A stretch of 64,000 nt of DNA from the NCBI GenBank assembly GCA_014871385.1, contig CM026427.1, positions 7,135,909-7,199,908 on the forward strand, read 5' to 3'. The notes under the pieces are model-generated. The model ran no database searches. It saw nothing but the letters and a program-made list of their open reading frames with translations, and had not been told where the DNA came from. This document shows positions 22,203 through 58,700 of this stretch, piece after piece. The translations under genes and the position numbers were made by a program. The DNA comes from Ceratodon purpureus. Taxonomy: Eukaryota > Streptophyta > Bryopsida > Pseudoditrichales > Ditrichaceae. Each line of letters begins with the position of its first letter. Position 1 is the first letter of the stretch.

Positions 22203-23361
22203 AATCTTCACCTAATGAAGAGCATGATCAGCGGTGTCAATCTTGGAAGGTGAGAGAGTCAACAATTGCTTTTGCTAGTGAGCTTAGTGCCGTCCAACTA
22301 CGATAGGCAGCCCCTTTGCAAGTGTGAGCCACTTGATCGTGTACACAGAGCGTGAAAGCTAGAGATGTTAGATGCACTCTTAGAACTTGGTTGTTTAAGT
22401 GGGGGTATATACTTGTCTTTGCAGTGTTGAAACTTGGGGAGTCGAGGCTAAACTTGTGGCAATGCTATTCTGTATCTAAATTTTGTCTAATAACTGAAGA
22501 ATTTGCAGTTTCTATTGGTACTGAGTTTTCTACAGCGCCATTCAACTGGGTCCCAGGGTAATCGAGAGATTGGTACCGTACTGTGTAACCGGCCTCTTTT
22601 CAAGAGTTTCTATACTGGTTGGGTAGGATTGTAGTTTTACACCTTATCCACGAGGCCTTTAGTAACGATGACCATAACCGGCTCCGTATAGCCTCATGGT
22701 AAGGAAGAGAGTACGGCCTTGGGGATAAGGAATTACGGTGTTGAATCTTTGATCATAGAGTCGTGTCTCTTATCTTCAACCCTTGCGAGAGTATATGTGA
22801 GAAACCTTCTGTACAAGGCCATCTGAGTCGAATGTCACCTAGTGCTAGGGGTGATATCTTTTGAGATTCTACAGGATGTCGTTAATGATTTCTCCTCGGT
22901 GCATAGTAATGTTGCGTAATCTCACTTGGTTGTTGGAGCTGTCTCAAAAGTCCCAAGGATGTAGCTATTTCAGACCTCGTTGACTTGTGACGAATGCTTT
23001 ATGATTTGCTTCCAAGATACCTGATGCTGCAAGAAGTGCACTTCTCGACTGCATGATAAAATGGGGGTTAGCAGCCTTCTTGCCCCTCATGTTACCTATG
23101 AGTCTAATTTGTGTGACCCGGTGTTAGGCGAGGGTCTTCCACGGAGCGTGGCCGAGAGGATCCCTTGAATTAGCATCTTCGGTAAAAGGGCACCGACTTG
23201 AAATCTGATGATCGAGATTGCAAGGACTTGACGATAATATCAAAGCAGCAAAATCAATGGGCCCACCACCTTGTCTCAATGGCTAAAAGACATTTGATCA
23301 TCAATCATGTGCTCCTCCCCGTCATATGCTAAACCTGTAGCTCTGCAACCTTGATAGCCTT

Positions 23362-24764
23362 AAAGCTTGCAATGTGAGAGAAGACCCAAAATCCTTGTGG
23401 TGCCATGGCTGAAGCAGCTTAGAGCAAATAGAGTAATTGGAAGAAGGAGACAATGAATAATATCTACAAATAAAGAGCAAAGGACAATGGGCAACTAAGG
23501 CATTGACAGACGTGGACTACACAAGGCGACAACGGATAAACAAACCTAGTCAAGTAGGGAGGAAGAAGTCAAGCTGCATGGAAAAGAGTATGGCTTTTCA
23601 AGGCTTCAAAGCTCCTCTTCCCAATAGAGCCAAGTTATAACCCTCATAAATCAATTAGTGTAGGTAACACATCAGCGAAGAGTAGTGGTAGCCAAAAGTA
23701 GTGGTCGAGTTGAAAGACCAATCGGTAGTAAGCTTCTATAATGACATCACAATATAGACTATAGTTTATTCAGTTTGAGATGGCATGATAAAAGAAATTC
23801 AATCCTCCACTGTAAGAGTCATTTCTACAGGTACAAAACTCCCATGGTAATCAGGACACCCTTGCACAACTGATTCATGTGAGGTATGAGCGCCAATGTT
23901 GTTTCTCTCAAGACTATCAGCTCAAAAATTTTGGTAAGAAATATGAAAAGAAATCAGATTCAGAAGCTATTGTCTCTGTGTTATCAGAGCGAGGTTTCGA
24001 TCCTCGGACCTGTGGGTTATGGGCCCACCACGCTTCCGCTGCGCCACTCTGATTTGCCAGAATGGCTTGATGACGTCGCGCGGTTTGCAGGTAGATTTAA
24101 CGGAGAAAACAGAGCTCGCATACACCGCCTAGAGACAACTATTACCTACATCATGTTTAGATTATGTTCCGTTGGTCCAGTCACATTGAGCTTGAATGAA
24201 AAGAAACAATCCTAGTTTCATTTTTTAGTGAAGAGAATGATATGAAAGATCGACCAGTTCTCTTCTGTAAATTTCATCTCATTGCGAAAAATTGATCATC
24301 AACATGTGAGGCACTAATTAATCCTATTTATCGCTGTTTCAAGACACGGTCTCCAAGCATCTGTAGCTGCGGAGATTCGAGTGAATTCTCACCATCGAAA
24401 ATCATTTCATTCTCGTAGCACCGGTAGTAGTATGAAGTGAGTATTTTTCCAGTGGATCCGTTTACATATCTTGAATTCAAGAGACGACTAGACTTACGGT
24501 TTCGATTTTTTTTTTCTTTGACATGCCATCTGTAACTAAATGAATTCTGTAGTTCTGAAATCCTGTGGATTGGATCATCTCACTCGGGAAGCTTACCACC
24601 AGTTTGATCTTTCGACTGGACTTCTTTTGGCCAGTAACATGTCACATACACTTTGTTTTATAAGTGCTATCAAAACATAACTCTCGGGAAATAGGTAGTG
24701 TGGATGGTGCTATCAACACAAAAGTAATCTACCACTAGACTAGCTTCACCTCCGCATGTCGTCT
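23362..24764 (-). repeat. Right arm of 1.4-kb palindrome
   Basis: Reverse complement of 19539-20940, one base longer. The flanks outside the arms (AAACATTT on the left, ATTGTTTTG on the right) share no convincing target-site duplication, so it need not be a transposon insertion. Confidence 0.92.
23982..24053 (-). tRNA. Initiator tRNA-Met (CAT), second copy
   Basis: Exact reverse-complement copy of the tRNA at 20249-20320, with the same acceptor, D, anticodon and T arms and the same downstream T run. It lies in the opposite arm, so the two genes are transcribed toward each other. Confidence 0.97.
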
Positions 24765-26348
24765 ATTGTTTTGCAAGAAAATCATGATATTTATAAGTTT
24801 TCAAGAAAACGCAGCTGTGTACCTTTTGGAAGTGCATCTTTTATTTTGGCATTTTGAGGAAATATGCCATTGTAAATGTTTCACTTCAGTCCTTCCAAAG
24901 CCATCTGCAACGCGGAGATCTAATTTAAATCTGACCAAAAATTGTTGCATTCTCTTTGCACCGCTAGTTGACACAGGTACACTTTAAATACTATATTGCC
25001 GTAGGCAACCCTTTGAACATACTTGAATTCTGCTAAGAATTTGGTTCTGCACTTACGTATCTTGGTAACAAATCCTCAAAGCTGAAGGCTTTTGGCATAT
25101 AATGAATTGCGCTAATGAAGACAGTTTGTGGAAGATATGCACAGGAATGCAAGAGCCATTCTGATGAACATTGTATGCAACTGGTGTTTTCTTATGGGAC
25201 ACAATCGGCAATAAAAGCTATCTTTGCTCATTCAAGAGTTCATTCTTACAGGTTAAAACTTCGCTTGTTTGAGAAATCAGACTTTCTCTGTTGATATCAA
25301 TATATGAACGTCGAGAACTGATGTATAGAGTGGAGTTGTAGCAACCATCATTGCATTCTGCTTTGCGTCTCCGGCCAGTCACCCATAGTTGTTGGGCGAT
25401 TGACCCAGATTCTGCCAACAGCACCTTCGACGCCACGACACATCACTGTAATCCGGATATCAAATAATGTGGTCAAAGTTGGTACAGGTAGACCGTAACA
25501 TGCAGCTATGGTGCCACTTGTTCGACACTGTACAAGCGCTTTACTGTATGTACTATTTCGTCTGAGCTGTATGACCCAAATAACTCTATCCAACAAGACA
25601 TCGCATGATCAGCCACATGATTGAAGTACCAGTAACCGTCAATACAGTTGAATACATGAATCCATTGAATAACCACTGTTCAGTTTTGACTTACGAGAAT
25701 CTTTATTTTGCTTCAACGACTTTTCCAAGTGGTATGACATGAAGGTGAGTCGCGGTATGTTCATAGCTACAGTAAATCATTGCGATCACCAAGTTGAAGG
25801 AGCTTCTTCACACCAGCAATCGGAAAGTAATCAGGAAGTTATGAACAGCTTGAACTGTAGCATATATCTCAAACGTCAATAATAGTCTTGCCTAATCAAG
25901 AGTGAATACAAAACTCCCAAACAAATCTTGAAGTCGCGGCTTCAGTGTCAAGTGCAATCAAGCTCGGAATTCAAGTGATTCAACATTGAAACCTCGCCAA
26001 TCATAAAACATCCAGCTATCGCGGGATTACCCAAATCACCAAGATTAAGTCAAGACAATCATGCTCTGAATGCGCAATAGCACAGAATTGCAGATATTCA
26101 TGTGCTGATCATGTTATTGAAACTAGGTCAAAATTGACCAAAGAAGAAGTCCAATGGAGTCGACAACTATTCTCCGCTACTCTACAAATTACCGAGTCCT
26201 CTTTCAAGAATCTGAACACCAGATCACCATAGCCGTTATCCTCCCACTCCGATATTTTACACTCGCACAATTGGCATCTCAATTTCTAACTGGTCATTTA
26301 TGTATACACATCTACTCTAAAGTTTTAGAAACTAAACCAATTGGTAAT
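24765..26348. other. Intergenic region, nothing recognised
   Basis: Short frames only (73-82 codons, plus a 158-codon plus-strand frame at 26154 that runs antisense into the DUF7796 gene). No repeats or RNA genes seen. The part near 26345 presumably includes the 3' untranslated region of the minus-strand gene. Confidence 0.45.
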
Positions 26349-31209: not shown

Positions 31210-31437
31210 TATTGGCATTATAAGTTGTTAATGGGAGGTGTGAAACAGTTGATTGTTGGTGTTTCACATTTGTTCGCACCTTTGCCTTAGAGGATGTATT
31301 TTGATCTAGAGAGAACTGTGCAAGGTATAGTAACTAGTAATCTAGAAATCATGTAGGAAATAAGAATAAATAGGAATAGTAAACGATTGGAACATTGTAG
31401 AGTTTACATTTCTCCGTTACTAAAATCAATCAATTAA

Positions 31438-31840
31438 CCCCTAATGTCGAAATCAACCCAATAAGGGTCAATTTCGGTCCGGTCAGGCTCGCAAGTACTA
31501 AATTTAGATAAAATGAAGTTCCTACTTTTGGCAGAATCTAGAGCTCTTTCATACCTTTCCAAAAAGTCATCTCATGCTTCAAAATTCCTCGTACTTTAGG
31601 AGATATTCTCAGTCAAAGTTACAAAACACTAATTGAAATCTGCTCAAAACTGCCCAAACTACGGTACATGCTCATTTATTCTCAAAAACTGCCCAAAATC
31701 AATTATATTGCAGAAACGTCAAAAATTCACCAAAAATTGAGATTTTACTTTTTTTCAAGTTTTGTTTTTTTTCAAGTACATAAGGTTTGAAGGCATGATC
31801 TCACCATATGGATTTTCAATCCAATTATTCTTCACATGTA
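31438..31840 (+). mobile_element. Truncated TTAA-family element (left end)
   Basis: Preceded by TTAA (31434-31437), the left end CCCCTAATGTCGAAATCAA and the next 400 bp closely match the left half of the element at 48914 in the same orientation. Shared strings include GTCATCTCATGCTTCAAAAT and TTCACCAAAAATTGAG. Similarity stops near 31840, at CACATG, and no matching right end follows, so the copy appears truncated. Confidence 0.75.
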
Positions 31841-33135
31841 AAAATCATATCCCAACTAGAAAAAAATTACATGTATTATATGTCAAGAGAGATCTCTACT
31901 AAAAAATAAAAGAGTTCTTTTTGGAAAATTTGTTTGGGGAAAGTATTTCGCTGCACATAGTACATGCAAAAGCATACGGAGTATCATTTTGATACACTTT
32001 TCAATAACAAACCAAGCACTGTGAAGACAAAATGCAAAACTTTTGCACTGTGAAATTTTGGTTTTCTTTTTTTTGGTCCAAGAACAAAAAACAAAAAACA
32101 AAATATCATACCTGAACACACAAGCTTATGTGGAACAGGGAAGGATTCTTCTGAACGGGCTGTATGGGTTTTAAAATTTATTATGATTTTTGCTTAGTTT
32201 CCCCTTGGTCTTGCCAATTGCAAGCGAGCCATTCTAATTACATTAAACTATTTTTGGATGCATTGTGCTGTACTATGTGTATATGGTCAAAATACAACAA
32301 AGTCAAAACTAGTACACATATCAAAGAATCTAGATTCATACAAACGATAAGGTACTGCACACAAACATTGGGTGTGCCCAGCTAGATATACAGTAGTGTG
32401 TACTGCAAGATATATCATCAAGTCAATGGAGTAGAACATTTCCGGGTATACTTTTGCATGGCTTTATTCGTAGTTCAATCTCACAAAGACATTCAGGTGC
32501 TGTGCAAGTCTAACAGTCAGCGCAACCTTGCTGTTTGCCCAGAGCAAGCGACACTTCTCACCATAAATTGCATACCCTCCAGGTTGGTGAAAGGTGGGAC
32601 TTGAATTTGCAACTGGGATTATGAATATTATAGAGGGGTCATTGCATTTATTCCAGCACTGGTTGGTCCTTGACGAGCAAGGCATGTGTATGTGAACCAC
32701 TTTGATCTACATCAAAAGAATGCAACTTACAAGGTACATGGTCCAATCAGAGAAGATTCATGGATATCTTCTTGATAGAGAGTGACTATGTTAAATTATA
32801 ATATATTTTATATTTAAGGTGTTCCAGTGTTATGTTTTACGAAATATCCAAATTTGAAGATGATGTGATTTATACATAATTTTTGAACAAACGTTTTAGA
32901 GGAAAAATTGAGTCCTAATAGTGTAGTACCATAGCAGAGTTGCCAGTCATTGAAAGATTCTTTTTAATTTTGGAATCCACAAGGTTCAACTCTCAAAAAG
33001 TGAATTTCTCAAAAAAAAAAAAATTAAAAAAAATCAAAAAACCAAAAAGACACTAACAATAGGCTCAAATGGTTTAGAGATAGGAAAACAACACTAAGAT
33101 AATTTGTTCTATATTCATTTATTTTTTCTATCATA
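31841..33135. other. AT-rich intergenic DNA
   Basis: No gene recognised; A-rich low-complexity runs occur near 33010-33050. A TACTCCGTATG motif (minus strand, near 31975) resembles Stowaway-type ends but is isolated. Confidence 0.5.
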
Positions 33136-33393
33136 CTCCTTCTGTCTCACTAAAGTCTAAAAGACCTTGGTTTGAAATGCAGTATTTTTTTGACCTACTT
33201 TGAGAAAGCATAAAATATTATTACTTATTTATATATTGAATTAATACGTATTATTGGCAAGAGTATATAGTACTACATTATAATCAATAATTATTGTACT
33301 ATTTATAGAAAACATGCAAAAGATATAAATTTCTCAAAGTAGGCAAGAAAATACTGCATTTGAAACCAAGGTCTTTTAGTGAGATGGAGGGAG
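33136..33393. mobile_element. Stowaway-like MITE (258 bp)
   Basis: The ends are inverted repeats of about 65 bp: left CTCCTTCTGTCTCACTAAAG, right reverse complement CTCCCTCCATCTCACTAAAA. Pairing continues through GACCTTGGTTT and TACTTTGAGAAA. TA flanks both sides (33134-33135, 33394-33395), the Tc1/mariner target. The interior is AT-rich and non-coding, so transposition would depend on a transposase from elsewhere. Confidence 0.9.
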
Positions 33394-36300
33394 TAATTTT
33401 TTTAAATAATATCTTCTTTTTCCAATTTATATATTTTTTAGAATTGTTTGAAGGCAGCCTACTATAATTCTACATTTCAAAATTATTAAAATTACACAGT
33501 TCATTCTAATAAATAAAAATATTTGAAGAGTAATTTTGAATATCATTCTTTTGTTTACAAAAGTTGAATTTGGAGAAAATTTGAATAAAATACATTCATT
33601 GAAGTAAGAATGTATTTAAAAAAAAAAATTAATATATCAATCTCATTATAAAATTCATAAAACAAAATAATAAAAAAGTTACATTTGAGAAATCCAAGGA
33701 ATTTAAATTTCAGTATTTAAATTTTTTTATGATTAAAACAATATATAATCCTAAAAACTCATTAAGGGCATGCTTCAAAGTTTGACAAATTAAAAAGTTC
33801 CACCGTTGTTGAAAAACAACTTAGTCCACTTTGATTTTTACTATCTCACAAATGAAGACAAATGAGCGGTCCAATTTTGGAATATGAGTAAAATATCAAG
33901 TTAATTTCAAGATCATATGGCTAAATGTACTTTAAAATGCTTAGATTGAGATTTGTTAAGTTTGAAGTAGAAAGGAGTCAGTCTTGGCAATTTTTGGCCA
34001 ATTTGCAACAAAGATCTTTAGGCTAACCCAAAACCAAAATATTGTTTGCATGAAACATAATATATTACTCCGTAACTTTTGGTACGCATAGTTTGACTTG
34101 GACACTAAGTTCTGATTGAATATAAGTCTCCTAATTTAACAGTATGAATGAATGATTTAGCCCAAGTTGCAAATATTCTAGCACAGCCAGGAAATTATTC
34201 GACCAGTCGACAATCACTAATCTGTTGAGGACTGAATAATCAAAATTAAGGATCCTACCAACGAAGTGCAGTTCCTCACATGTAACTCTTGTGACTTTGT
34301 AATGCAGTGACTTGTAACGCAGTGCATACAGCTTGGATCATCTAACATGACAACAACCATCATAACCATTTACAATTACAGATGGTTGCAGTGGCTGAAA
34401 TGAACTCAAATAACCCTCTACTCAGATCTGAGAACTATTCTCCAGAAGTGATACATGATTTTAGCTGTAAAGCCACCAGAGACTAGAGTTGAACTGCTTC
34501 CGGGTCACTCTCTTGTTAGAAGAGTACAGCACTCTGCAACCCTGGCGCCCTGCGAAAGAGCTCAGTCACAGCAGCAACAGATTGCCATCGCCTCTGCATT
34601 GATAGGGAATTAAACGATGTGGACTTAATCAGAAACTAAAGCCCAATTTACAAGTAAACATTCGTATTCTGCACAAAAGCATCAATTATTGGAGGCGGTT
34701 AGAACAATGGGAAATATCCTTCCTGTGTGTATCACTTCTTTGAACCTCCTTACTATGAATCTACACTCTACTCTGCACACAGGTGTTGTTGTGTGTTGGA
34801 GGCATTTTCTTGATCAGGATGTTTTAAGGCAAACCAATTTTTCGGACCACAAAAGGGTAAAGTTGGTGTACGGCAATTTGAGTCTCTACTTCAGCAATCA
34901 CAGGGCAGAAAGATTAAATTAGCACTCAAATTGAGAAATTCAGGAGGGCATTCCATCTTTGAAGTGATATGGATGGGTCAAGTAAGAGATAACGGATCAC
35001 TTTCAAGCTTAATTTCGTCATGTTGTGCCATGAAAGTCCTGTTCTGCGACGCGCATACAGAGGGCATTTATCTCAAATTCTAACACATACATTTTCTCAC
35101 ATGAGCATTTTCTGCTGATTCGATGATACTAGCCAGCCCTGCGTCCGATCAAGTCCAAAGTCTAGTAAGGAGGTCTTTTACACGGGCCTCATCTACCAAA
35201 TTAATGTTTGAGAAGTTGAAACAAACTCTAACTAGCTTGCAGCGAAGGCAAGGTAGCTGTTATTGAATCTTGCAGCTATCCGACATCCGTTGCTTGGACC
35301 ACTGCACTTAGGTGTATGAGAGCTGCTGTGTCAATGAATGCAGTCGCTGACCGATTGCATATCAAACGGTGAATTCTTTTTCGACTTTTATTAAAAATGC
35401 TGTGCACTTGGTACACGTAACCGGCATACCGGATCCCCCAAGTTTTCGAAAAGCCCCTCACGCAAATATGTAAGGGCCCCAGTAACACAACACTTCAACA
35501 TGGGTTCTAGTACTACTTCAGCTTGCTAGGCACAAATGTTAGAAAATCATGATCTTGGAAGGATGAACTTGAATGTGAATTTACAACTTCTGGTGTGCAG
35601 GAGTGTAGTCGAAACTCCTGCTCGCACACAATCGACACTGATCATATTCTTGTTGTAGATCAGTAGGTTCGCCAGCAAATCCTTTCCCATCTTATCATAT
35701 CCCCAGAAGAACAAGTATGATCATCTTTATCATGTGTGCAACGATCAGTTTTGCATCGGAATGAGAAAGTACTCCATAATCAAGTCTTAGTTCATCCAAG
35801 AGGATTCCGACCATGCTCTACATGGAGATATTCATTACTTTAACAATTTTATGCTTACCAAAATGAGATTTGGAGTTTCAAATACACTACATAATCATGT
35901 TAAAATCTAAACTGCCGAATCTGTTTGAAGAAACTGCCAATATAGTGAATAACTCCATCTACATTAAAATTGCCATCCGCTACGGAGTTGGAAAGTGAAT
36001 TTACCGGGCCCCAAACATATTTGTCGTGCTGTGAACATGCTGGATTGTCCAGTAAGTAGTGAAGTACCAAGGTCCGTGAGAGAGAATTTAAAAATTTCGG
36101 TTTCGTGCTGCTCTGAATTATGTTTTGGCGTAACTTATGACAATCACCATGGCAAGCATGAATCCATGCATGAGCAGGTGTAACATGCAGATTGTTGGGA
36201 GCTCAGCGTTACCAATTGCAACTGTTAAGTAGCGGCCCTCGAATGACACCAATTGTGAAACAGTACAGTAACGTCGAACAGAAACAGGACATGAGGCAAG

Positions 36301-36732: not shown

Positions 36733-37130
36733 CAGTCAATACGGTGTGAAAATTTTGATATTTTGTGGAGTGAACATTTTGTACTGAAAGAAGTTTTTTT
36801 GGAAATATCAAAGATGACATTAAGTATTTATAGAAATAATCTCAGAGGTAATAGATGTATTTAGCATGGCTACTTGAATTGCCCACCGAACAGAAATTTT
36901 CACTTCGGGTACCATAACTATTTTTTTAAATGTCTAATTGAAAAAAATTAAATTCTCTTAAAATTCTTCTTAAGGCCTACATTCACACAATAAATCAAAA
37001 CAAATATCTAAAATTGACATCACATGAATCTGCCCAAAATTTTAAAAAGCCTATTCTAGGATAATTGTCCTTTTAGAGGTTAAATGACTTTGAACCTTAT
37101 GATCTTCCAATTTGTGCAATTATAAGTGGT
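36733..37130 (+). repeat. Dispersed repeat, copy 1
   Basis: Aligns in the same orientation with 51918-52330. Shared strings include GAACATTTTGTACT, GTATTTAGCATGGCT and GATCTTCCAATTT. The copies are clearly diverged. Near 37077 the sequence TTTTAGAGGTTAAATG resembles a decayed right end of the TTAA-flanked family. Confidence 0.7.
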
Positions 37131-39026
37131 ATACACCTTTAATATAAGACACATGCAAGATCCTATGGTTACAAATCTAATAAAATCACTAATTCTAGAA
37201 ATCAATAGCCTACTATTACTAAGGATTTGTATTTGCCAGTTTTACTCCAAAACACAAAGGAACGTTAGGAATTTATGCATGTTTTACAAAACACATATGA
37301 AAGTCGAATGGTATTTTGGATGAAAATTGAAGTTACGAATATTTACTGTCAGTAAAAGTCAATTTTTAAAAATTCATTCTGGAAGTGCTGAACATCAAAT
37401 TTTCAAAATATTTAAATATTCAACAGCTGAAGGACGAAGCTGTCAGTAAACTTCGGTACATTACAATTACACAGAGGCTAGAAAGATAACATTACTGGTT
37501 ATAGATTCTTTTACCAAAGACCAAGATTACTGGCCATCCCATTGTCGCACAAACCAGCTTGTTCAACTACAAAGAGTTAAGATTAGAAGTTGCAGAATTG
37601 TATCCAGAGATAGGATTTGCTCACACAGCTGCAGTGGTTAACGATCGGCTTGAAGTTTGTTAGCGCACGAAGAGATCCATCAGGGGCTCACTGGTAGAAG
37701 TGAGCTGTATTCCAGTTCAGTACAGATCATCACTCATGGTAAATCCAAACCAACATGCTGGACACCGAAAAATAATACTTGCCCCTCCAGGCTTCAACCG
37801 ATAAATAATGCTTGACCCTCCAGGACTCTACCGAAAAATAATACTTGACCTTCCAGGCTTCCACAGTTCGCAGCAGATCTCTAAAACTTCGAGACTTAGG
37901 AGACTCCGAGTCTACATTTCAGACAAGATTGCGCCAAAAGAAAAACAAGGTGATTCTGGCATCTTATGATACTCTTTATTGATTCTGGAACTTGAAAAGT
38001 GAATGCAGTAATTGGTACCGTACACTGTTCCGGCTGATTAGGAGTCCCCAAACGCCATGACGTGGATGTGATGCATGCAACAAGATCTGCTAATCTGTAA
38101 AATCTTACAGGAAAGTGTAGAATTAAATGAGACAGCTGGGGAGAACAGTCTTGATTATGCGATACAGTCCAGCATTACTTTTTTTAAGGACAGTTCTAAA
38201 AACGTCACAGCAATGCATTTGATTAACCAACTTATGAGCTCCCATGAAACGATTGAGGACTTTTAACGTAATGCCTGCGACATCGTACTCTCTAAACGTG
38301 TTTACGAAATCCATGTCACCACCATAGTGAGTAAATGCATCTTCAGACACCCTACATAAGAGACTGAGCATAGGAAATTAAACGATGATATCGTCAACAT
38401 ACACAAGAAAATCATAACCAGAGTATCGCAATGATACGAAAAACAAAGAAGTCGAATCAGAATAACATATTAAAGGACCCGTCTTTACTATTTACAAACA
38501 ACCAGACCAGACACATATGTCAGGAAGACCTGGCCAACTATCCAATCCAGTCTCTAAAAAGATGATCAAGAACAGTGAATCGCTGGTGGACGCAATAATT
38601 AATGACCAACAAAACAGATCGCCTGCAAAGAAATACAAAGAGGTAAATGTAACTATATATATATGTATATATAAGAATCTGATCGTCCGTAAGAATCAAG
38701 ACGCAGCACCATGAGCCCAGTCCCAACAGTGAAACTCTAACGAGGTCTACACGATCCGGCATTGGTCCCTCAACATTCCTGTCTCCCAAAACCAACCTTC
38801 ACCTTGCCGGACTCAAAAAAACCGAGGGATGGACGCCCAGTCCTATGCATCCTTTATATCCATCACCACCTGGAGCAATGGCTCCCAAAAACAGATCCTC
38901 TCTCTCTCTCCCTCCATCTCTAAGCACCTATCCACTTATTCCAAACGTCTCTCCTACCGTTATATGTTACAAAGGGGCAAAAAAGCAACCGCTGACGAAC
39001 CCCTCTACTTCTACACATGGTTCCCA
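37131..39026. other. Intergenic region downstream of the histidine kinase
   Basis: No gene recognised besides the minisatellite. The part from about 38500 to 39026 may be 3' untranslated sequence of the minus-strand kinase. Frames such as 38075-38266 and 38538-38795 have no visible family. Confidence 0.4.
37764..37862 (+). repeat. 33-bp minisatellite, three copies
   Basis: Units start at 37764, 37797 and 37830 with consensus ACCGAAAAATAATACTTGAC plus CCTCCAGGCTTC. Units differ by a few substitutions, and no indel changes the period. Confidence 0.85.
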
Positions 39027-45387: not shown

Positions 45388-47205
45388 GGAATCCATTCTC
45401 TTCGGTGAATTTCAAACGGCCTGGTTACTTTTGTACTATGACCTCTACAGCGTGCACTGCATTTCCGATCGGCTGATTATAATTGTAATTAGCCTGGAGA
45501 GTGGAACATTGCTAGCAACACCCTTGCTAAATTTTAGGGTGAGACCTTTGTCTTCTAGACCTGGAATTTTGTAGTGCATCGCACTTAGAGAATAGTGCAT
45601 TGTTTACAGGATAATGTAGATAAAGCTACTTTGCATGAGAACTGCGTGAACTAGTTATCAATTCACAGAAGATTATCAGCGAACTCGGTGAGTAGAGAAA
45701 TTTCGACTGTTAACAATTACTTCGGGAAATTCTGACGGCTTTCACGGATTCAGATGAGTGGGCGGCTAGAGCCTTAAACGAATGCTGCGATATGCGGGTG
45801 ATCTACATTTGATGTACCGCTTCAGGTTTGATGTACAAAGTTTTAATCTCATAGAGCAGCTGATGGAGCGTTTTGCATTTGAAACACCGTGAACTTGCAC
45901 ATTATATATGAGATTGTCAGAGTTTCTGTGTGGCATTCAGTGTTAGGTCTAGAGAAATGTTTAATGGTCTCACCTGTATTAGGCGGTTTCCTAAATCCTA
46001 ATTTGAGCTGGAGCACATGTCCACATATATGTCACTAGCTAAGCACGAGATGTTATGTGTCATAGAGAAGAGGTTATGAATTTGAAGCTCAGTAGCAGCT
46101 CTTTTCCATACTTCTGGCATAATTGGCATATGAATGTTAGCTGCTAATCCACCCTATTTTGCATGACAGGACTGTGATTTTGGTGCTTACCTGGCATGCA
46201 TGATTTGTTAGTGGATACTTCCCTTCCAGCTGTTCTTGAAATCGGAATTGAGGAAGGTAGCACTGCCAGAGTCAAGTACTTTTAGCATAAATTCTTGCTT
46301 GTTTGGCTACATGTAATACAAGGCACTAACATTTGGTTATGTTATTGAACATGTGTACAACACATACTTATGTCAGAATTGGGGACACTTGCTTTTGCTC
46401 TAGCAAACCTTGTGATATTTCCAGGTGCAAGACATCTTGCCCATGAACACTTGATGATTACATCAGGAGCTGCAAACAAAACAGAGGTCCATCATTAGCT
46501 TAAAACTGATAAAGGTGAGCTGTATTCTAGCTTTTAACAGTTTGATGAATCTGGTTTGCTTCTTGAGAACACAAACCCTTTAACAGACCTGTGTTTTGAG
46601 TCTCTACAATCCAGACCCGTGGCTCAGTGACAGCCTTTTTTGCTCCAAAGATATTGAGTAGATGTATGCGCCGGCTAATTAGTGGTTTGTTCCACTGTGT
46701 CAAACAAGTGCAGTACCACAAGGTGGACATGCAGACTCGAAGGTACAATATTTCTGACAAAATCAGAACCATGTACAAAACTACAATAAATGATGCTCAT
46801 GTCCCTGTTCAGCTATGTAGTTTGCTGCTTGCACAGGTCCATGAGTCCATGACCCATCTTAGGTGGCTTCCCATTGCAAACCTGCAAACCTGAATGTGGA
46901 TGATGACATTGGGAATGTACCTTGCAAGATTGGAAATCCAAAGACAGCAGAGGTTAGGAGTGACATCCAGGTTTGTATATTGGAGAAAACAAGACTGGAA
47001 GCAAGGAAATCTTTTCTTGAAACAGAAGAGTTATCATGAAAGGTTAGTGTTTAGAAGGTGGGAGTAGTGGATCTCACCGACATTCCTCTCAAACTCACAA
47101 GAAATTTCATTCAATTGGTACAGTGAATATTCTACTACAATACAGAAATGCAAGTAAAGATTCTATGACAATACAAAAATGTGAGTAACACTACATTAAA
47201 GTTAA
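45388..47205. other. Intergenic region downstream of MED4
   Basis: The first few hundred bases should be the MED4 3' untranslated region. Frames at 46527-46893 are short and unrecognised. No RNA genes seen. Confidence 0.45.
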
Positions 47206-47959
47206 CCCCCAAATGCCTGAGCCTATGACCACGGAAATAGACTTTGACTTTGGATGCTCTATTATGCTACTATAAATAATGTAAAATATGAATTTTAAAC
47301 TTTTCTTAGCTAGATACACATGTTATCTACAAGAAATAATTCTATCAAAATTAAATGTTTCGAAATATAATTAATATAAAATTTCAAATCAAAACAAACA
47401 AAGAAAATTCATATCAAATATAGGTTATACTAAAAAATTATGAAATATTTACCATAGATGAATATGACAACCAAAAACCTTATATTAGTTACCGTGCTAA
47501 AAAATTATGTTTTAAATCAAAAATATGATGAAAAAACCTAAAACCGTGGAAAATCAAGAAGTAGCCACGGTTATACCCCTTCATCTTATACCAGCTATAA
47601 ATCAGTCAATTTTAGGTATTTTTCAAAATTTTAAATTGGACTGGAAAATAGATTTGCCAAACTACATTTCATTGGTTTACTTCAACTGCAAAAAATATCA
47701 TCTCGATAGTCAAAATTGTGTTTCAGCTGTCTGTATCAAGGAATTTTTGAATACACACACGGTATTGATGTTTTTGACTTTAAAGAGGCACCAAAATTCA
47801 TGAAATTATTATTTTGAGAAATTTTTAATGAGGTTAGATAGATCTCTCTCAACTTTACCACGTAAGAAAAAAATGGATGAAAAATTGTCATTTGGATGAC
47901 AGTTTTGGAACTTGGAAAAATGAAAACGACCAGTTTTTGGTCGTTTGGGCGTTTAGGGG
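47206..47959. mobile_element. TTAA-flanked element 1 (754 bp)
   Basis: Flanked by TTAA at 47202-47205 and 47960-47963. The left end CCCCCAAATGCC and right end, read inward, CCCCTAAACGCC match at 10 of 12 positions. The interior is AT-rich and non-coding and looks unrelated to elements 2 and 3, so it may be another subfamily. TTAA target plus CCC-starting ends is the piggyBac pattern (inference). Confidence 0.6.
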
Positions 47960-48913
47960 TTAATAAGTCATCTCAAGCCAAAGTCATTCTGGATAACTGA
48001 CAAATACAATTAAGATATAACAACTAGTTGTGGTTTTAGTTCCTATGAATTCTCAGCTCTCTTCTTATATTTTTTGTCATCAAATGGGATTCTTGCAAAT
48101 TCCTATCTTCTGTATGTAATTACATTCCTTGAAATTGAAATTACTATCAGACCATTTCTTTATGTGTGGTTACCATATCATCATTTCAGCGACAAAAAAA
48201 CTTCACATTCACTATTGCAAAGTAGGCTTTGTTCAAGATGTGTATCATACAACACCCATCACTCCAGTCAGCAACGCGGTTGATTGGAAAAAGAGCTTTC
48301 CATGCTTTTCTTGATGCAGTATCAGCTTTGGCAATAAGCTTTACTTTTCAGGTGAAGACCTGAATGACAAGCATTCTGATGAAAATAATGTTGGTCAAGT
48401 TATGTAGCTCCACTTTGCCATAGGAACAATCTCTCCGCAGCTGCCTTCCCTGAGTTGTCACAATCAAGGAATAAATACCAGGGTAGCCACCCATTTGACC
48501 ATACATTTGATCCTTTCCGGGAAAAAAGATAAGGTTTGTTCTAAAAATTATTTTGATTTATTCTTCTCGGGAAAAACACCAAAAAATGTCTCAATTGCCT
48601 TAGATATTAGTAAGTATTACTAGTAGTAGATAATATATTTCCATCTTTTTAATCCTTATAAAATAAAACATTTTGATATCCAATATAGTATTTGTTTTAA
48701 TAAATTTTTAATATTTAAATTTTTTTTGACAATGTTTAAAGATAACATATTTTCTGTCTTTTTAATTTTAAGTGTTTTGTAAGTTCATAAAGTATTATGT
48801 AATAGATGAGCAAGAAATGGTCATAATAGAATTTTATTTCACGATCTCACTTAAGTATGCATTTTTTATTTGACAACACAAAAATGTCTATATACCCATT
48901 AAAGGATTATTAA

Positions 48914-49746
48914 CCCCTAATGTCGAAATCAACTTGATCAGGGTCGATTTCCGTCTGGTGCGCTCGCGGTAACTAAATTTTGATCAAATGAAGTTTCTTG
49001 TTTTGACAGATTGTAGAGTTTTTTCATACCTTTCCGAAAAGTCATCTCATGCTTCAAAATTCCTCATACTTTAGGAGATATTCCCAGTCAAAGTTTGAAA
49101 ACATTATTTGAAATTTGCCCAAAACTGCCCAAACTGCGGTATATGCTCGTTTATTCTCCCAAAATCAATTAAATTACAGAAACTTCAAAAATTCACCAAA
49201 AATTGAGATTTTACTTTTTTTTCAAGTTTTGTTTTTTGCTCAAGTAAATAAGGTTTTAAGGCATGATTGCATCGTTTGGATTTTCAATCCAATTATTCTT
49301 CACATGCCTTTTTCATTGTCAAAGATTTGCCTTTGTAGTTGAATTTCAGCATACCTCTATGTGAATAATCAAGCATTTCTTTAGGTTTTATAGGTCGTTT
49401 GAGGGTTAAAATTGCAAAGGCATGTTTCTAACTCACCTAAAAACAAGAATTTGAAGAGCCTCATATCAAATTTTCTAACAAAAATGGTTTTTTTAGCTTT
49501 CAAAAAACTAACTACTTTTTTTTCAACAAGCAAAAAACTTTTTTTCCGTCTTTAAACATTATGATCTCACAATTGGTAAGGAATTTGAATTTAAGATTTG
49601 ACATACATATGCATATAAAAGGTAGGTACAAGATCTTACTATTGTATACTCAAAAATACATCAAAAATTAAAAATTTGCACCTTGCATTTAAAGAGGGCG
49701 GTTTTGAGGGTTTTTTGCAATTTTGAGGGCATTCGACATTAGGAGG
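48914..49746. mobile_element. TTAA-flanked element 2 (833 bp)
   Basis: Left TTAA at 48910-48913 with end CCCCTAATGTCGAA; the right end read inward is CCTCCTAATGTCGAA, followed by TAAA where TTAA is expected (one change). The left half matches the truncated copy at 31438, and parts of the middle (AAAAATTGAGATTTT, GATTTTCAATCCAATT, GTGAATTTCAG-like) match element 3. No transposase frame remains. Confidence 0.72.
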
Positions 49747-49846
49747 TAAATAAATTGGTTAAAGAATTTTAAAGCTTAAGCCCTAAAGGTCCAAGAAACC
49801 CGATTGTGGCTTTTGCTATTTTGGGCAGCCTAAATGGAGAGCTTAA

Positions 49847-50686
49847 CCCCTAAACGGCCTTTGTCCTGGAATGGGTTTTTTTGAAATTTGGGCAGGTTCC
49901 TAAAAATTCAAATTTACTTGAAATTTTTTGTGGTAAAAGATTTTTTTAAGAGGTTTATGGGGATATTTTTTTTAATTTTTTTGGATGAAGTGAGAAAAAT
50001 TTATGCTCCTCTGAGCATAAAACGCCCTTCCGCGGGCAGGCTCTGAGCCACTGTGAATGCAGCAATTTCTGCCCAAAACTGCCCAAAACTGCCCAAATCT
50101 GCCCAAATCTGCCTAAAGACGAAACTTTGAAATTCCACCAAAAATTGAGATTTTGATATTTTTCAAAAATAAAAATTTCAATGTATTGACAAGGTAGTAG
50201 AGCATGTTCTCACCGTTCGGATTTTTAATCCAAATTTTTTTCATATGCTATTTTTATTGTCAAAAAACGGCCTTTGTTTGTGAATTTCAGTATACCCCCT
50301 AGCGGAAAATGATTGTTTTGGCAACCTTCTACAACTTTTTTGAATATTATTTTTTTAACACAATTAGCTAACTCAGTCTTCTTTGACGTGCATCAAAACC
50401 CCCAAAATCCATAATGGAAAAAAATGGTTTTTTGGGCCTTCAAAACTCTGCTGATCCCTTTTTGGCAGGGAAAAAAAACTTGTTTTTCAACTTTGAACAT
50501 TATGATTTTGCAATTGGTGAGGAATGAGTGTGTATGATTTAGTGGACATGTAGACATAGAAGTTAGCTACAAGATCTTACGATTAGATGTACTAATTTAG
50601 ACCCCGAGTTTGCAAAATCCACCTTGCTTTGAAGAGGAGCTGTTTTCAGGCAGTTTTGATGAAAAACACCCTTGGCCGTTTAGGGG
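49847..50686. mobile_element. TTAA-flanked element 3 (840 bp), best preserved ends
   Basis: TTAA at 49843-49846 and 50687-50690 bracket perfect 13-bp inverted ends, CCCCTAAACGGCC and GGCCGTTTAGGGG. The interior is AT-rich with repeated CTGCCCAAAA units near 50065-50115 and no coding capacity. It lies 100 bp from element 2 and shares internal segments with it, so the two are relatives. Confidence 0.82.
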
Positions 50687-50690
50687 TTAA

Positions 50691-51917
50691 AAGTAATATT
50701 TTTGCCTAAGATTTTTCTTAGGCGCTCCCTTTACCGCAAGGTGTACGCGGTAAAATTTTCAAAGTCAAATTCCCATTTTAGAACCTTCCTCCAGAAATTT
50801 TGGGTTTCAAGTCGAAATAGGACAGTTTAAAATCAAGTTTTTTTTCAATTTATTTTTTAAGAATATGTTCATAACCAAATCACTACTCTAAATCCAAAGT
50901 GACCCAAGTAAAAAAGTTTACCAGTTTTACAAGAGTAGCCTTCAAAAATTACATGAACAAACTTCAAAGTTTTTTGTAATTTTACAGTTTTTCCTATAAA
51001 AAATTGTCAAAATTTAAGATTTAGGAAATTCTCAATTTAGATTTCTTCCAAAATTCACAAACTCATAGATGTGACTTTTCACCATTCACTTTTTTCCAAA
51101 CCAAAAAACTTTAATGTTATTTAAGTTTTACTGTATTGAAGATTTTGTACCTGCTTTTGGAAAATAAATTGCATGAAGGCCAAAAAATCAAAATGAGTCT
51201 TTAAAATTTTGCATGGAGGTGCCCAATTTAGTTATCTCTATGGAAAAAAATATGAGCAAATTGTTTGGGAAAACAATCATCAAGTCTCCTTTGGCACCAT
51301 TTAGACTATGCCTTTCGAGCAAAGCCACAAAAAAAAATAAAAAATAAAAAATAAAAATAAAAAAAATAAATAAATTTGAACGTTATAATCTCACAAACGG
51401 TGAAGATCCAACAGTTCAAATTTGACATGGTGTTAGTGCAAGTAGTTAGGGTGAAGATCTTACAGTTGAAAATACCAGAAAAGGAAATATTATTGGAAAC
51501 ATACATCAATTTCCATAGGGTGGTCAAAATTTGTAGTTTCTGGACTTGGAGGTCCCAAAACACTTTGGACCTTTAGTCGTTAAGATTTGTACCTTGGATT
51601 GTTGATTTTATTGAAATAATATAATTTTGAAGTTTCGTTTATGACAATTAGATATAATGTGCTATATTAGTACATTAAAAGCATGCATTTTAAATATACG
51701 CAATAAAAATATATATATATAACGAAATTAGTGATGAATTAATTTCTTAAGTTGTTGATTATTAAAGTTTTAAAACTCATTATCTCACAAAGTCTCAATC
51801 CAAACAGTCAAAGTAAAGATTGATGTCCATCCTTTCAGTGAAAAGAAGAAAAAATCTAAAAAAACAATTTTTTAAAACTATTATGAAGGAAAAAAGAAGT
51901 TTTTTTGGTACATTGTT
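50691..51917. other. AT-rich repeat-like DNA
   Basis: No gene. An A-rich simple tract of AAAAAT units lies at about 51328-51375. The string CTTTAGTCGTTAAG near 51576 might be a decayed TTAA-family end. Confidence 0.4.
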
Positions 51918-52330
51918 CAGAACGGTGAGAAAACTTTGATTTTTTATGGAATGAACATTTTGTACTCAAAGAAGTTTTTTTTAGAAATGTCAATGATAAC
52001 GACATAGAGGATTTATAGGAAAAATCCCAAAGGTAACAAATGTATTTAGCATGGCTTCCCGAATTGCCTACAGAACACATAATTCCACTTTGGGTGCCAT
52101 TACTATTTTCATATATGTATGATTGAAAAAAAAATCCTCAAAGTTCCTATATTGGCAAACATTCACAAAAAAAAATCAATTTTTAAATCTGAAATTGACA
52201 TCTCAGATACATGCCCGAATTTTTTAAAAGCCCAAGTTTGGTAGATTGTCCTTTAGGGGATAAGATGGGGGGGGGGGGGGATTTACTACAAACTATGTAA
52301 TCTTCCAATTTATGGCTTCAATTTTCATGA
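51918..52330 (+). repeat. Dispersed repeat, copy 2
   Basis: Diverged direct copy of 36733-37130. It contains a run of 14 G at 52267-52280 that is absent from copy 1, following CCTTTAGGGGATAAG, which again resembles a TTAA-family right end. Confidence 0.7.
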
Positions 52331-53916
52331 AATTCCTTATACATGTTCTTATAGTATTCTTTGGCAAGATCATACAATTACTCTTCACACTAAAAAGAAC
52401 AATTCTGAAGTGCTTTTGGTGAGATATAATAAAGAATTTTTTTGGGGTTAAAATCTGTCGGCAACATACATTGAGGTTCATTTCAACGCGGTTTATGTTA
52501 CCTTGGAATGCAAGGGCAGTGTGCCCACACCCTGTCTACAGGGTTTAAACTAACCAAACTTCTTTGTACACAGCTTTCAATGAATTTGACAGGTAAGTTA
52601 GACGTGGAGACTTTTGGCATGCCATTCTACTCCAATGTGACAAATGCCCACCAGACTCTTGTCTACAGCCCGTGATTGATGATTGAACTCATCCAAACTC
52701 GGTGCATGTACTTGAATGAAATGCAGACCCAGCAGCCTCGCAGCCTGCCTGGTTTGAGCTGGCAAGATATAGTGTAGCATGTGAAAAATGGCGGACGTCC
52801 CCACTATAACAATCTCAAAACATCCCATGACTCAATCTCCATGTGATCACAGGATGTCATTTCCCAGTCAATTTCTGCAATTCATTTTCCAAGTGTGATT
52901 CCGGAACAAATGAGAGACTTTCAGAATATTACATTCGTGCATTTGCCCAGCAGGAGCATGGAAGAGAATAAGAGGAACTATGTTCGTAGTACTACCTTGT
53001 AGAGCACTGTTGTCAAAGTTCCCCTGTCCTGAGCACCATTATAAGCGATATTTCCATGCAAAACTGCGTCTTTGCAGACTTCACTGGCTGCCAAGTTTTG
53101 CAAATTGGTTGACTTTGAAGCTTTGCTTGATTTCTCAATTTGCCTTGCCTGATTGTCATCCGAAACAAATTCATAAATGGTGACCTCAGCATCTCCCCTC
53201 ATGTGCAAATTTCATCCTATTCATGTTACCCACGCAATTGAAGATTTTTATTCCAACATGAAAGAATCATTTCTCCCTTGTTTTCTACGCAATGGGCTTC
53301 TCCACCTTGAGTACCCACACAATAAATTTGGTACATCTTATATTCACAAGCAAATACCTCTCCAAATGCTATCATGGCACACCAGATATGGCAGAGGCTG
53401 CGGTCTGCACACTTGGGTCCCCTCCTGTGGGTTCCACCGATTCCTTCCAAACATCACCACCTTATTACCATACCACTCACGTTCCCATATTTCAAAGTCA
53501 CCCAGGAGCTGTCCTGACAAACAAAACGCTCACCACTCAAGCATCAGAGATTCATATAAGATCAATTTTCCATCATAACATTTATCATCACATGGTTTAT
53601 CATTCATCCCCTAGAAGACCCCCAATTTTGTCAAAAAGTAAGGGAGGAAGTTACATTACAGGAAAAGGTAGACCTGATATTTGCCCACCCAATCCAGGTG
53701 TCAATGAATAACCCCAACTCAACACAAAAGAATCCAACTTGTCATTTCCTGATCATGCTCACGTCTGAAAAAATCTAGGTCACCGCCATAAAGAGAGGCT
53801 CCTGCACAACTTTTCAGTGCCTGGGAACGTGGGAACCACGAAATTTGATTAAAATTAGCCCCTGTGGTGATTCTTTATAGGCTGTGGTGGGGGCCTTTTG
53901 AGTTGGAATATCACCA

Positions 53917-54075
53917 TTGCACCCAATCTAACTTACCACTGTATACATTTCAAAAAGTTACTATGGTCCTCTTTTTTAACTCTGGGCTAAATGGGTTCCT
54001 TGCACCCAATCTAGACTGTGTGTGTTTCAGAAAGTTACTTTGACCCCTTTTTTTTACTCTGGGCTGAATGGGTAC
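53917..54075. repeat. 83-bp imperfect tandem duplication
   Basis: Copies begin at 53917 and 54000. Both run TTGCACCCAATCTA, then AAAGTTACT, then ACTCTGGGCT(A/G)AATGGGT, with substitutions and small indels between them. Confidence 0.7.
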
Positions 54076-55179
54076 GTTCTTTGCAGATCTTTCCGTTTTG
54101 TGATGTCTGTTTTTTTCTCGTGCAAATATGGGTCTTGACTCTTGACTGATACTTGGTCTAAATGAAGGTGGAATTTACCATTGACATTGGATGTCAACAT
54201 ACTATTGAGAGGAGTCTGGAATATGCTGGAGGACTATTGGGGTCCAAGAGAGTTACTTGCGAAGTTGCGGCCCTTGGTATATTTTGTTGATGTACAGGAA
54301 GATCTGACATGGCTTGTAAGGAAAATATCTAGACGCCACCTTGACATGGAAATGGTGACGAATATAATATTGAGGCACATAAGCGTAGATTCTTTGATGT
54401 GGGAAGGGAATTAATTCAGAACACTTGGCATTCCATACGGACAATAGCAGTGTTGTCTGCCAATGGGGTTGGAGAGAAGTTCGTGAAACATACAGTTTTG
54501 TGATTCACAGAAGTTCACGCAGGTTTGTTGACAATTTTGGGTAAACATGTAAATATCTCGTTCAAAAGACATACGCTACATGATTGGTTTCATTTCACAG
54601 AGCAAGTACTACCCTAGCTTTTGGTAAAAATCAAGCCGCTTTGAATTGAGGACTATTCACATGTGTGTGACCTCAGCTTTGGGAAATCAGCAAGGAGAGC
54701 TCACTGGTTTCACTACCATAACGTAAAATAAAATGTTGTCTAGTAACATGCAGACAAACTTAGCTATGAGGGGGGCACAGCTATTATGAGGGGCACAGCT
54801 GTTACAACCGCAACTAACTTACCTTGAGACTTGAACCTTACCTTTTGTACATTTTTATTAAAAAAAATCGCTCCAAGGAACTGAAGACCTAAGATGCCTT
54901 CTGCGAAGCTACTACGGTATTCCACAGTTTCTTTTTAAATATTGTGATGTAAGAAAGATTAGTATTACACCTTTTATCATGACCCTCCATTGACCATACA
55001 AGCCTTATATAGTTCATGTAAGGTATATTGGTATCACGCCTATAAGGTAGACGGTGCTAAATTCGTGCGTTTTCTTAATCCGTGCATGTTGTCTCGGCAT
55101 AAAAACCATGCACTGCAAGACTCATAACCAACCTAGTAGTGTTCGCAAGTTGAATACACTCGCAGTTGCATGTACGAAA

Positions 55180-55221
55180 CAAAGTGGGTGGATTTGAATA
55201 CAAAGTGGGTGGATTTGGATA
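55180..55221 (+). repeat. 21-bp tandem duplication
   Basis: CAAAGTGGGTGGATTTGAATA is followed at once by the same unit with one change (GGATA in place of GAATA). Confidence 0.85.
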
Positions 55222-55562
55222 CCACGATGGCCAGTTCTCAACTTAGTATTGATTGTCAATAGTAGCATTAGGGCGTGTCTGTAGGAGATTTTGTTGATTC
55301 ACTTTGAACATTTTTCATTAATTGAAGTGGTTTGATATGCTCATGTGATATACTCACCGTGGTTTGATATACTCATTGCTTAACAAATGTCTTTTAGTTG
55401 CAAGCATGTGAAATTTTTGCAATTATTTATGTTTGATTCAAGTTGTTCAAATTCCTTAAGTGCACGGTTTAAGCACCATCTACCTTAACCTTGCATAGAC
55501 CATACAAGGATGAGACCATTGTTTCAAAAGGCAAAGAGATGAAGAAAATTCTATAATTATTA

Positions 55563-55755
55563 CTCCCTCCATGTCACTAAAAGAGCATAGTTTTCTAATA
55601 ATAGCAGATTTAAAGACAATTCTAAATTTAAAAAAAGTTGGACAAATTTAGAAATAGGTTGGCTAAATTTAGAAATAAATTTGCCGAATCTAGTAACCAT
55701 TTTTTTTAGACAAGTTATTTTATCATAGCATGCTCTTTTAGTGAGACGGAGGGAA
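55563..55755. mobile_element. Stowaway-like MITE (193 bp)
   Basis: Left end CTCCCTCCATGTCACTAAAA and right end (read inward) TTCCCTCCGTCTCACTAAAA form inverted repeats extending to GAGCAT. TA lies on both sides (55561-55562, 55756-55757). The ends resemble those of the element at 33136, so they belong to one broad family, but the interior differs. No coding capacity. Confidence 0.88.
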
Positions 55756-55757
55756 TA

Positions 55758-58700
55758 CATCATATTGAATGTGTAAAATTGTAGATGAACAATCAAATGA
55801 GATTTAATGGAAGTGACCTTATCCATTATCTCTCTTCACTTCAAACTTCTTTAACACATAGATTGTATGAAAAAGATTTTCAAAGAAAACAATTGTATAA
55901 AAAAATGTAATATTTACTAAAAGAGATAATTAGAGAAGTTGGGTTGAACAAAATAGATGATATAATATTGGCAAGTGTAAAATTATCTTCAGTAGAAGAA
56001 TCTCTTCTTACAAATTCTAACTTTTCAAATCATCCCACTATGATAACAAACCATAATAACATGGAAATCAATAATAACTAAAAAATCAATATATTTCTCC
56101 TACAATCAATTTCAAAACAAATTCATACATTGCCCAAAAACATATAAAAAATCGAGTTCAAATCTCAAATTTTATCTCACATGTATTCCCATTTCATTTT
56201 TTTAATTTTGAGGCAAATGATACGAAAAAACCCATTGCAAAATCGGCAAATGACATCAGTGCTAAATTTCATTTTTGACGAATGATAAACTAACCAAAAT
56301 AACCAAATACGTTGTCAAGAAACTGCAGTGATTAAAGAGCTGCCACTTTGAGACATATAACAAGGTGAGATCGCCAGCACAGAACCAGAAGGCTTAAAAC
56401 AAACGATTCGGTTAGCGTCCCATGGCTCGAGATTCGGTTCAATTCAACCCCCATTCCAACACACAGCCACGGCGCCCCAGGCTCCCTCCCATTCATGAAC
56501 CTCTCGACGAGTTCCTCGATTCATATATGGCATTATGGCGACGCCATTCGCCCAACAACTTGGTGGAGTGCTGGTGGACGGAACAGCCTCTCTTCCTCCC
56601 TCCCTCCCTCCGGACTCCGGATTCCACACCCCACAGCCCTCCTGAGGCCCATGTCGGCCCCGCGTACATCCTGATTCAGCGTGGACAGTGCTGGACAAAT
56701 CCGCGTCAGCAGCGGAGGAGCTTCATGGAGTGAATTTACTACTCCTTGTGTGTGGCGCCCACTGGGGATGAATGGCCAGGGTGCCACTGTGGGGGCAGAT
56801 TATTAGAGCCTCCGTCGCTTTTGTGCTAGAGGACTAGCCAGTCTACTTGACTGTGCATGTTGGCAACTGTGTGTTGCGACGGAAAGCTTGTAGCCCCATC
56901 CGATGGCTTCCCCTCTTTTTCTGCGTTGCACAGTCATTCGGAGCAACAAAAGTATTGAACTCGGACTCGGTTCATTGGTATGTTTCGTGGGAGTGCCCCT
57001 GCAGGTGCTTTGATTCGGCGTTGGGGGTTTATATAGTGTGGTGTGGTGTGGTGTTTTGAATGGTTACTCTGATTGAGAAGTTGCTTGGATTTCGAGAGAG
57101 ACACTATTTTGAGGAGAAATAGCCACTGAACAAACGAAACATGTATAACTCTCAAGGTAATACTGTAGTCACATGTCGATGTAGTCAGGGTACTACTACT
57201 GTATAGCCACATGTCTCGGTTGTAATGGTGTTTGTAATTATAATAAGGTAGCACTTTGATGAAGATGAGAAATCTTTAGGACTGATAAAAGTTACTCCGT
57301 ATGTTTTTTATCAAATTTTTCATAGTTTACTTTTGTAGTTACAAACGGGTATTCATTCATTTTTCTCAATAACTAAAGTTTTAGTCGTGCATATATTGGT
57401 GGTTTCAAAGGTTAACTAAAAATAATGTTCAAGCAAAAAGTTTTAGAATGAAAGCATTAATTTATAGAAAAAGTTAAATGATAAAATAACAAAGAATCTG
57501 TAATAAATGTTATGGATATTATAATAGCTATTTGCAAATTTAGAAGAAAATAATCAATATAAAATATGCCTAAATTTTTGGAAAATTAGTGGTCTTGTAT
57601 GCCTAAATTGATACAAAATTACATTCAAGTAATGCCTAAAACTAGAAAAGTCAATCATTTGTTGAAATTCTAAAAAAATAGATTTTTGTTGAGTTATAGC
57701 AAGCAAAGCATTAATCATTGTATAACTAAATAAAACACAAGTGTAAGGCATGATGTGTTGTGTCTACAGTATTGTTGACAAAATAATTCATAGTTGGCAA
57801 AAGCATTTAGATTAATAAAGTTGCCATAAACAAAATTATAAAAGCCATTCATGACTTATAGAAACAACTGTGATGAATGTTTAATTTCTAATCTTTTTAA
57901 AATATGTGCAACTTTAGAAAATAATTTTCTAGATTGCCTAACTTACTTTTGCAAACTAACTAGTAAATAGGTGGAAAGGTGACCAAGCTACTGAAAACCT
58001 ATGATATGATTGAAACTTATAATCATAATTATCATGAACTTCTATCAATTTTATAATTGAGTTAAGTTTTTGAATTACAGTAATCAAATCACAAATATGA
58101 AAATGTTATTTCAATTTTAACCATACTATTATTTACATATTTGTAGGGAATAAACAAAATTAGTAAAAAATCTCTAAAAAATCTTCAAAACATCAAACCA
58201 TGCATCTTTGAAATTTTAATAGGATATAAACTCGTTACAACTAGCTTAATCTATATTGTTCATAAGATATGCCACCTATATAACTGTATTTCCATGTTTT
58301 TTAGATGGATAGTCCTACTTTTTGACATAGATAAAAGACATAATTTATTGCAGAAATGAATAATAATTTTTTTAATAAAAAACAAATAAAAGAACCAAAT
58401 CATGAAATGATGTTCTGTAATGAATTCTAAATCCATCACATTCTAGTCAATCTATATTGTACATAAGATACACTATGTATGCTGCTAGACCTACAAATTG
58501 CAACTTTGATTTTTCATATTATTTCACATCGATGAAAAGCACACTAGAGGATTATGGCTAATAGACTTTGGACTTTGAACTTAAATGTGTATGTAGAGAG
58601 GCCGAAATATTTTTTTGGAAATTCAATGTTATTATAAGCAGTCATTAGCTTTTTGACATAGAGTTACAATGTCAAGCAACGCTCAGTTTAACACTGAAGT

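Follow-up and report, generated by a model that had tools for sequence, protein, structure and literature searches.

We analysed a 64,000-nucleotide stretch of the moss Ceratodon purpureus (positions 7,135,909 to 7,199,908 of contig CM026427.1, assembly GCA_014871385.1; hereafter the window), which contains four non-coding elements, E1 to E4, with CCCC..GGGG-type ends at TTAA sites. The assembly to which it belongs comprises 362,488,568 bp in 151 contigs, the largest of 110.5 Mb. The elements share the window with genes encoding DUF7796 (presumably a plant family), Med4, dihydrouridine synthase, hybrid histidine kinase and pfkB kinase domains and a member of the sugar-nucleotide epimerase family. 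A first-pass annotation, made from the letters alone, had described a cluster of three TTAA-flanked segments that start with CCCC and end with GGGG or GGAGG, the third with perfect 13-bp inverted ends, and had assigned them to the piggyBac superfamily. The coordinates, the ends and the perfect repeat (17 bp including TTAA) all held on re-examination; the cluster, however, is larger than three, since a fourth element, E4, and a truncated copy, E2b, had been missed (Table 1).

The left and right ends match at 10 of 13 positions in both E1 and E4, and at every position in E3. The E3 repeat, CCCCTAAACGGCC, which recurs in a transposase-bearing element described below (L127), lies within the length of about 12-19 bp and has the CCC or CC[C/T]T start expected of piggyBac terminal repeats, although the strict form given in a passage of PMC2872659 is CC[C/T]T and repeats here begin with CCCC(T/C). 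AT-rich DNA often contains TTAA, and short inverted repeats turn up easily, so that chance might account for such a pattern, and a motif-free scan for inverted-repeat pairs at TTAA agreed with it: TTAA did not rise above other palindromic tetramers at 9 or more of 13 matching positions (22 pairs, against 55 for AATT), and at 11 or more it gave one pair while the other 15 tetramers gave 0-3. The end motif, not the pairing, therefore carried the statistical weight in the window, where pairing alone is weak evidence. With at most one mismatch, TTAACCCCTAAA occurred 10 times against 0.43 (standard deviation 0.56) in 30 first-order Markov samples, and TTAACCCC occurred 8 times against 1.57 expected, a count reached in none of 100 shuffles. 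This motif excess, together with the abrupt end of homology at TTAA in all 28 genomic E1 copies examined, led us to reject chance outright.

Table 1 Elements, target sites and possible remnants, numbered from the first nucleotide of the window
Feature	Position	Strand	Description
E1	47206-47959 (47202..47963 with flanks)	+	754 bp, non-autonomous; ends CCCCCAAATGCC / GGGCGTTTAGGGG; TTAA at 47202-47205 and 47960-47963
E2	48914-49746 (48910..49750 with flanks)	+	833 bp, non-autonomous; ends CCCCTAATGTCGAA / TTCGACATTAGGAGG
E3	49847-50686 (49843..50690 with flanks)	+	840 bp, non-autonomous; nested in E4
TTAA target copy, left of E3	49843..49846	.
TTAA target copy, right of E3	50687..50690	.
E4	49776..51583	+	about 0.96 kb without E3, non-autonomous; decayed ends GCCCTAAAGGTCC / GGACCTTTAGTCG, TTAA-bounded
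E2b	31434..31838	+	second copy of the E2 family, 5' half only, right side truncated; 86% to E2
E5	51922..52451	+	possibly the decayed remains of another related element; relative of 36741-37083
E6	36741..37083	+	possible remnant; 76% to E5

The ends proved to be shared well beyond the window. Searches of the genome returned 747 candidates for the E1 family, 2,380 for E2 and 2,241 for E4, figures that are first-look candidates rather than confirmed copies; 40 per family were scored (44 match rows for E4). The 40 scored E1 matches, which include the window copy, showed 95-100% identity and a homogeneous length of 761-768 bp. Among the best 28 of these, TTAA stood on both sides of every copy and between-copy homology ended at TTAA in every case, the flanks adding nothing to each other's homology, although some flanks match other repeats. 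Mean pairwise divergence among these copies was 3.2%, with 1.8% to the consensus, values drawn from best matches in which older copies are under-represented. For E2, left ends fell at TTAA in nine of ten copies and right ends in all ten, reading GGGG or AGGG and then TTAA; the window E2, whose left TTAA is intact, closes instead with GGAGG followed by TAAA, which is a private decay of GGGG followed by TTAA. Uninterrupted E4 copies had the ends CCCCTAAAGGTCC / GGACCTTTAGGGG, with left ends at TTAA in 8/10 (TTTA and TCAA in the other two) and right ends reading GGGG followed by TTAA in 9/10, the remaining one carrying one extra base. One E4 left end (L131) and one junction (L138) were read by eye, the script patterns having missed both. 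Six-frame Pfam scans covered the window apart from about 10.0-13.5, 18.5-19.5, 24.4-27.0 and 41.0-46.0 kb, where gene frames were scanned separately; host-gene domains aside, the scanned parts gave only matches below the curated cut-off, and positions 46001-56001 gave no match up to E 1 in any of six frames, so no coding capacity was seen there.

The absence of coding capacity, the terminal repeats, the homogeneous length and the 747 to 2,380 candidates for E1, E2 and E4 are features of miniature inverted-repeat transposable elements (MITEs). The usual MITE is smaller than E1-E4. The suggestion that these might form an undescribed MITE family stands as regards non-coding sequence and high copy number, and as regards the open-access literature searched, which yielded no moss account; it fits less well in size, 0.75-0.97 kb being long for MITEs.

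Similarities also link features within the window. E2 aligns to E3 at 64% over 606 bp in a self-comparison of the window, making the two distant relatives, and the homology of E2b to E2 starts at TTAACCCC, position 31434. E5 contains end-like motifs (TTTAGGGGATAA at 52252-52263 and GGGGTTAA at 52444-52451) with true ends that are uncertain, and E6 reaches TTTAGAGGTTAA, yet its similarity seems to run past that point. A reading in which 51922-52263 and 36741-37083 are clean elements with TTTAGRGGTTAA as their end was dropped, as the similarity appears to extend further. A motif of about 100 bp (TTTGAACATTATGATCTCACAATTGGT..ACAAGATCTTAC) recurs near the right ends of E2, E3 and E4 (49551-51468) in diverged surroundings, and was also seen by eye beside E5 and E6 (about 37090-37190 and 52290-52390).

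The nesting of E3 in E4 provides empty sites within the same genome. E4 copies that lack E3 carried a single TTAA at the insertion point in 9 of 11 cases, while two read TTAT and TTGA; 9 of 10 fetched E4 copies showed the single TTAA at this position, and L125 did not. The empty site reads ..GAGG-TTAA-AAGTAATATT.., and the window has TTAA-E3-TTAA in its place. A second arrangement was found at locus L081, where an E1 end and the end of a neighbouring element, CCCCTAAAGCGTC, abut at one common TTAA; the body of this neighbour is about 75% like E2, and its far end, TTTAGAGG, again has its TTAA in common with a third such end. Were TTAA instead part of the terminal repeat, with insertion by another route and no target duplication, copies that all bear TTAA would look the same as those we collected, and empty sites are needed to tell the two apart. 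The single TTAA in E3-free E4 copies and the common TTAA at L081 identify TTAA as a duplicated target and not as part of the element, and we rejected this alternative as having hardly any likelihood left. As a separate observation, the fourth E2 copy examined and L081 (1501-3080) each show an element inserted at the terminal TTAA of another, giving chains with common TTAA.

A search of the genome with the DDE_Tnp_1_7 profile (PF13843) gave 998 candidates, of which 116 were scored, and all 116 exceeded the curated cut-off; the best match had E 5.3e-84, and 93 of the 116 were free of internal stops. One match lies about 33 kb past the right end of the window (C7:7232604). The same profile found nothing in 14 control genomes, which make a weak control. 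In 8 kb examined around six of the 116 loci, CCC-type repeats stood at TTAA on both sides of five, the right end of the sixth, L125, being decayed, and the transposase-bearing elements spanned 3.9-5.9 kb. Two of them, L127 and L128, measure 5.5-5.9 kb and have open frames of 1,038 and 1,007 amino acids. The L127 frame aligned at E 6.7e-28 with 6x67, the piggyBac transposase of Trichoplusia ni (T. ni), with aspartates at the positions of D268, D346 and D447, the catalytic residues described in part of PMC2533014. From the 20 best of the 116 loci we aligned 17 frames, three with interrupted frames having been dropped and L118 being represented by the open stretch next to its stop; all 17 retained the three catalytic aspartates. 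Their pairwise identity ranged from 28% to 97%, indicating that several transposase lineages coexist. L127 (2013-5129) and L128 (2075-5098) also encode a long, glycine-rich, low-complexity N-terminal extension ahead of the DDE domain.

These larger elements connect most directly to E3. L127 bears CCCCTAAACGGCC at both ends, identical to the E3 repeat, and positions 1-181 of E3 matched the left end of L127 at 78.5% (E 1.8e-42) and that of L128 at 73%. The first-pass annotation had proposed looking for genomic ends bounded by TTAA, for empty TTAA sites in related strains, for DDE_Tnp_1_7 proteins and for long elements sharing the ends. This genome itself supplied shared ends with flanking TTAA, the empty site of E3 in other E4 copies, the 116 scored transposase matches, and transposase-bearing elements of the same end type, exactly so in L127. 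What it had named as counter-evidence, namely other target duplications among genomic copies, or a lack both of empty sites and of shared ends outside the window, was not what the genome held. Kolobok elements likewise duplicate TTAA (passages of PMC9587614) and could in principle leave the same target sites, but their termini are given there as 5'-RR..YY-3', whereas all four elements have the CCCC..GGGG type, and elements with such ends here encode DDE_Tnp_1_7, which already refutes Kolobok for E3. With the wrong termini, Kolobok was rejected and seems to us extremely improbable.

A narrower alternative would confine piggyBac to E3 and have E1 and E2 mobilised by a Sola3-type or other TTAA-targeting superfamily. 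Sola3 uses TTAA. Such a split would suit the six transposase loci examined, none of which has the exact ends of E1 or E2. Against it, E2 is alignable to E3 as described above, all the elements share CCCC(T/C)AA ends, and in in-register comparisons scored against 200 letter shuffles the right end of E1 resembled, if loosely, the ends of L128 (z-score 7.7) and L126 (7.4). The left end of E4 compared similarly with L128 (6.2). We regard the split as very unlikely, if somewhat less so than Kolobok.

Taken together, these observations lead us to assign E1-E4 to the piggyBac superfamily, as non-autonomous DNA transposons of a moss genome, likely moved at TTAA by its DDE_Tnp_1_7 transposases, a reading to which we give a probability of about 95%. 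E1-E4 would be passengers, consisting only of terminal repeats (of the CCCCTAAAnGnCC type) and non-coding filling; transposases from the 4-6 kb elements elsewhere in the genome would bind the ends, excise the element and integrate it at TTAA, duplicating that site. In this model the transposases would be what moves these copies, excision may be seamless, and E1, E2 and E4 may use the same enzymes as E3.

Several observations pull the other way. Mobility itself is predicted from sequence rather than directly observed. No transposase lies within the scanned parts of the window, as the first-pass annotation had noted in taking the elements to be non-autonomous. None of the six transposase elements examined is a partner with identical repeats for E1, E2 or E4, the likeness of the E1 end being loose and that of the E2 ends weak (z-score 3.9), and one of them, L129, which starts CCCTT, has stops inside its transposase match. 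Three E2 and E4 copies have left ends off TTAA (TTTA, TCAA and TTCA), to which the extra-base E4 right end may be added. At L095 an E1 copy is flanked on both sides by a 39-bp direct repeat, beginning 14 bp outside the right TTAA, that TTAA duplication does not explain. Finally, the E1 copies examined were the best 28 of 40 scored and the E2 and E4 copies came from the tops of their lists, so that divergent copies are under-sampled.

With less assurance, though still on the favourable side, we propose that piggyBac in this moss forms a diverse population that was active recently, with at least 100 transposase copies in several deep lineages and probably thousands of non-autonomous elements, making it a major DNA transposon of the genome and a possible source of native plant transposases. 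piggyBac is a much-used cut-and-paste transposon, scarless and a standard tool of genome engineering. With a land plant that has large passenger families and many open transposase frames, the plant history of the superfamily, whether vertical retention or horizontal transfer, becomes testable. Such a plant is also a source of candidate transposases adapted to plants and a natural setting in which to study how insertion at TTAA proceeds in plant chromatin.

The window has further features apart from these elements. A 1,404-bp sequence is duplicated in inverted orientation at 19538-20940 and 23362-24765; the arms are 99.86% identical, lie 2.4 kb apart and each carry a tRNA-Met gene (20249-20320 on the plus strand, 23982-24053 on the minus strand), and no Pfam match exceeded the cut-off in 19501-24400. 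A MITE at about 33134-33395, which we take to be Stowaway-like, has the ends TACTCCTTCTGTCTCACTAAAG / CTTTTAGTGAGATGGAGGGAGTA, and a related 35-bp end lies at 55559-55593. A match to the U5 spliceosomal RNA at 18649-18764 scored 45.8 bits, just over the Rfam gathering score of 40. In searches of other collections, the 14-mer TTAACCCCTAAACG retrieved 75 stretches of viral contigs, none homologous to the elements, an 18-mer found no match in viral contigs, a 23-mer found none in the genome-contig collection, and plasmids gave none.

piggyBac is best known from animals. The moss elements resemble the superfamily, as represented by T. ni piggyBac (6x67) and piggyBat (9c0f), in TTAA duplicated on insertion, in CCC..GGG terminal repeats, in a DDE_Tnp_1_7 transposase encoded between the same ends (for E3) and in the equivalents of the catalytic aspartates D268, D346 and D447. 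They differ in their land-plant host and in frames of 1,038 and 1,007 amino acids against a chain of 594 residues (6x67); L127 and L128, at 5.5-5.9 kb, also contrast with about 2,472 bp, and the CCCCTAA start with the CCCTT most conserved in animals, both as given in parts of PMC10813416. Of the non-autonomous types that we found described, the coral elements called CMITE come closest, judged by passages of PMC2872659: they lack autonomy, TTAA flanks them on each side, their CCC-type repeats measure 13-14 bp, their internal sequence is conserved across families with differing repeats, and coral family III likewise starts CCCCT, but they are about 100 bp long and live in animals, compared with 750-960 bp here. 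Among plants, a repeat table for the fern Ceratopteris richardii labels 1,230 copies (122 kb) as PiggyBac (PMC6890710), and one for the grass Stipa capillata a single copy of 75 bp (PMC8319324); these are repeat-table lines, in passages that give no ends, target sites or transposase. No description of moss piggyBac came up in the open-access literature searched, where a query with the end sequences led only to papers that, by their titles, are unrelated; a prior description elsewhere is possible. The view that piggyBac is unusual in land plants needs tempering, as a review names it among superfamilies in plants (PMC10794571) and another paper states that it has been isolated from plants (PMC10813416), each in a passing mention. 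The superfamily was known already, and the surprise lies in its land-plant host and its abundance there.

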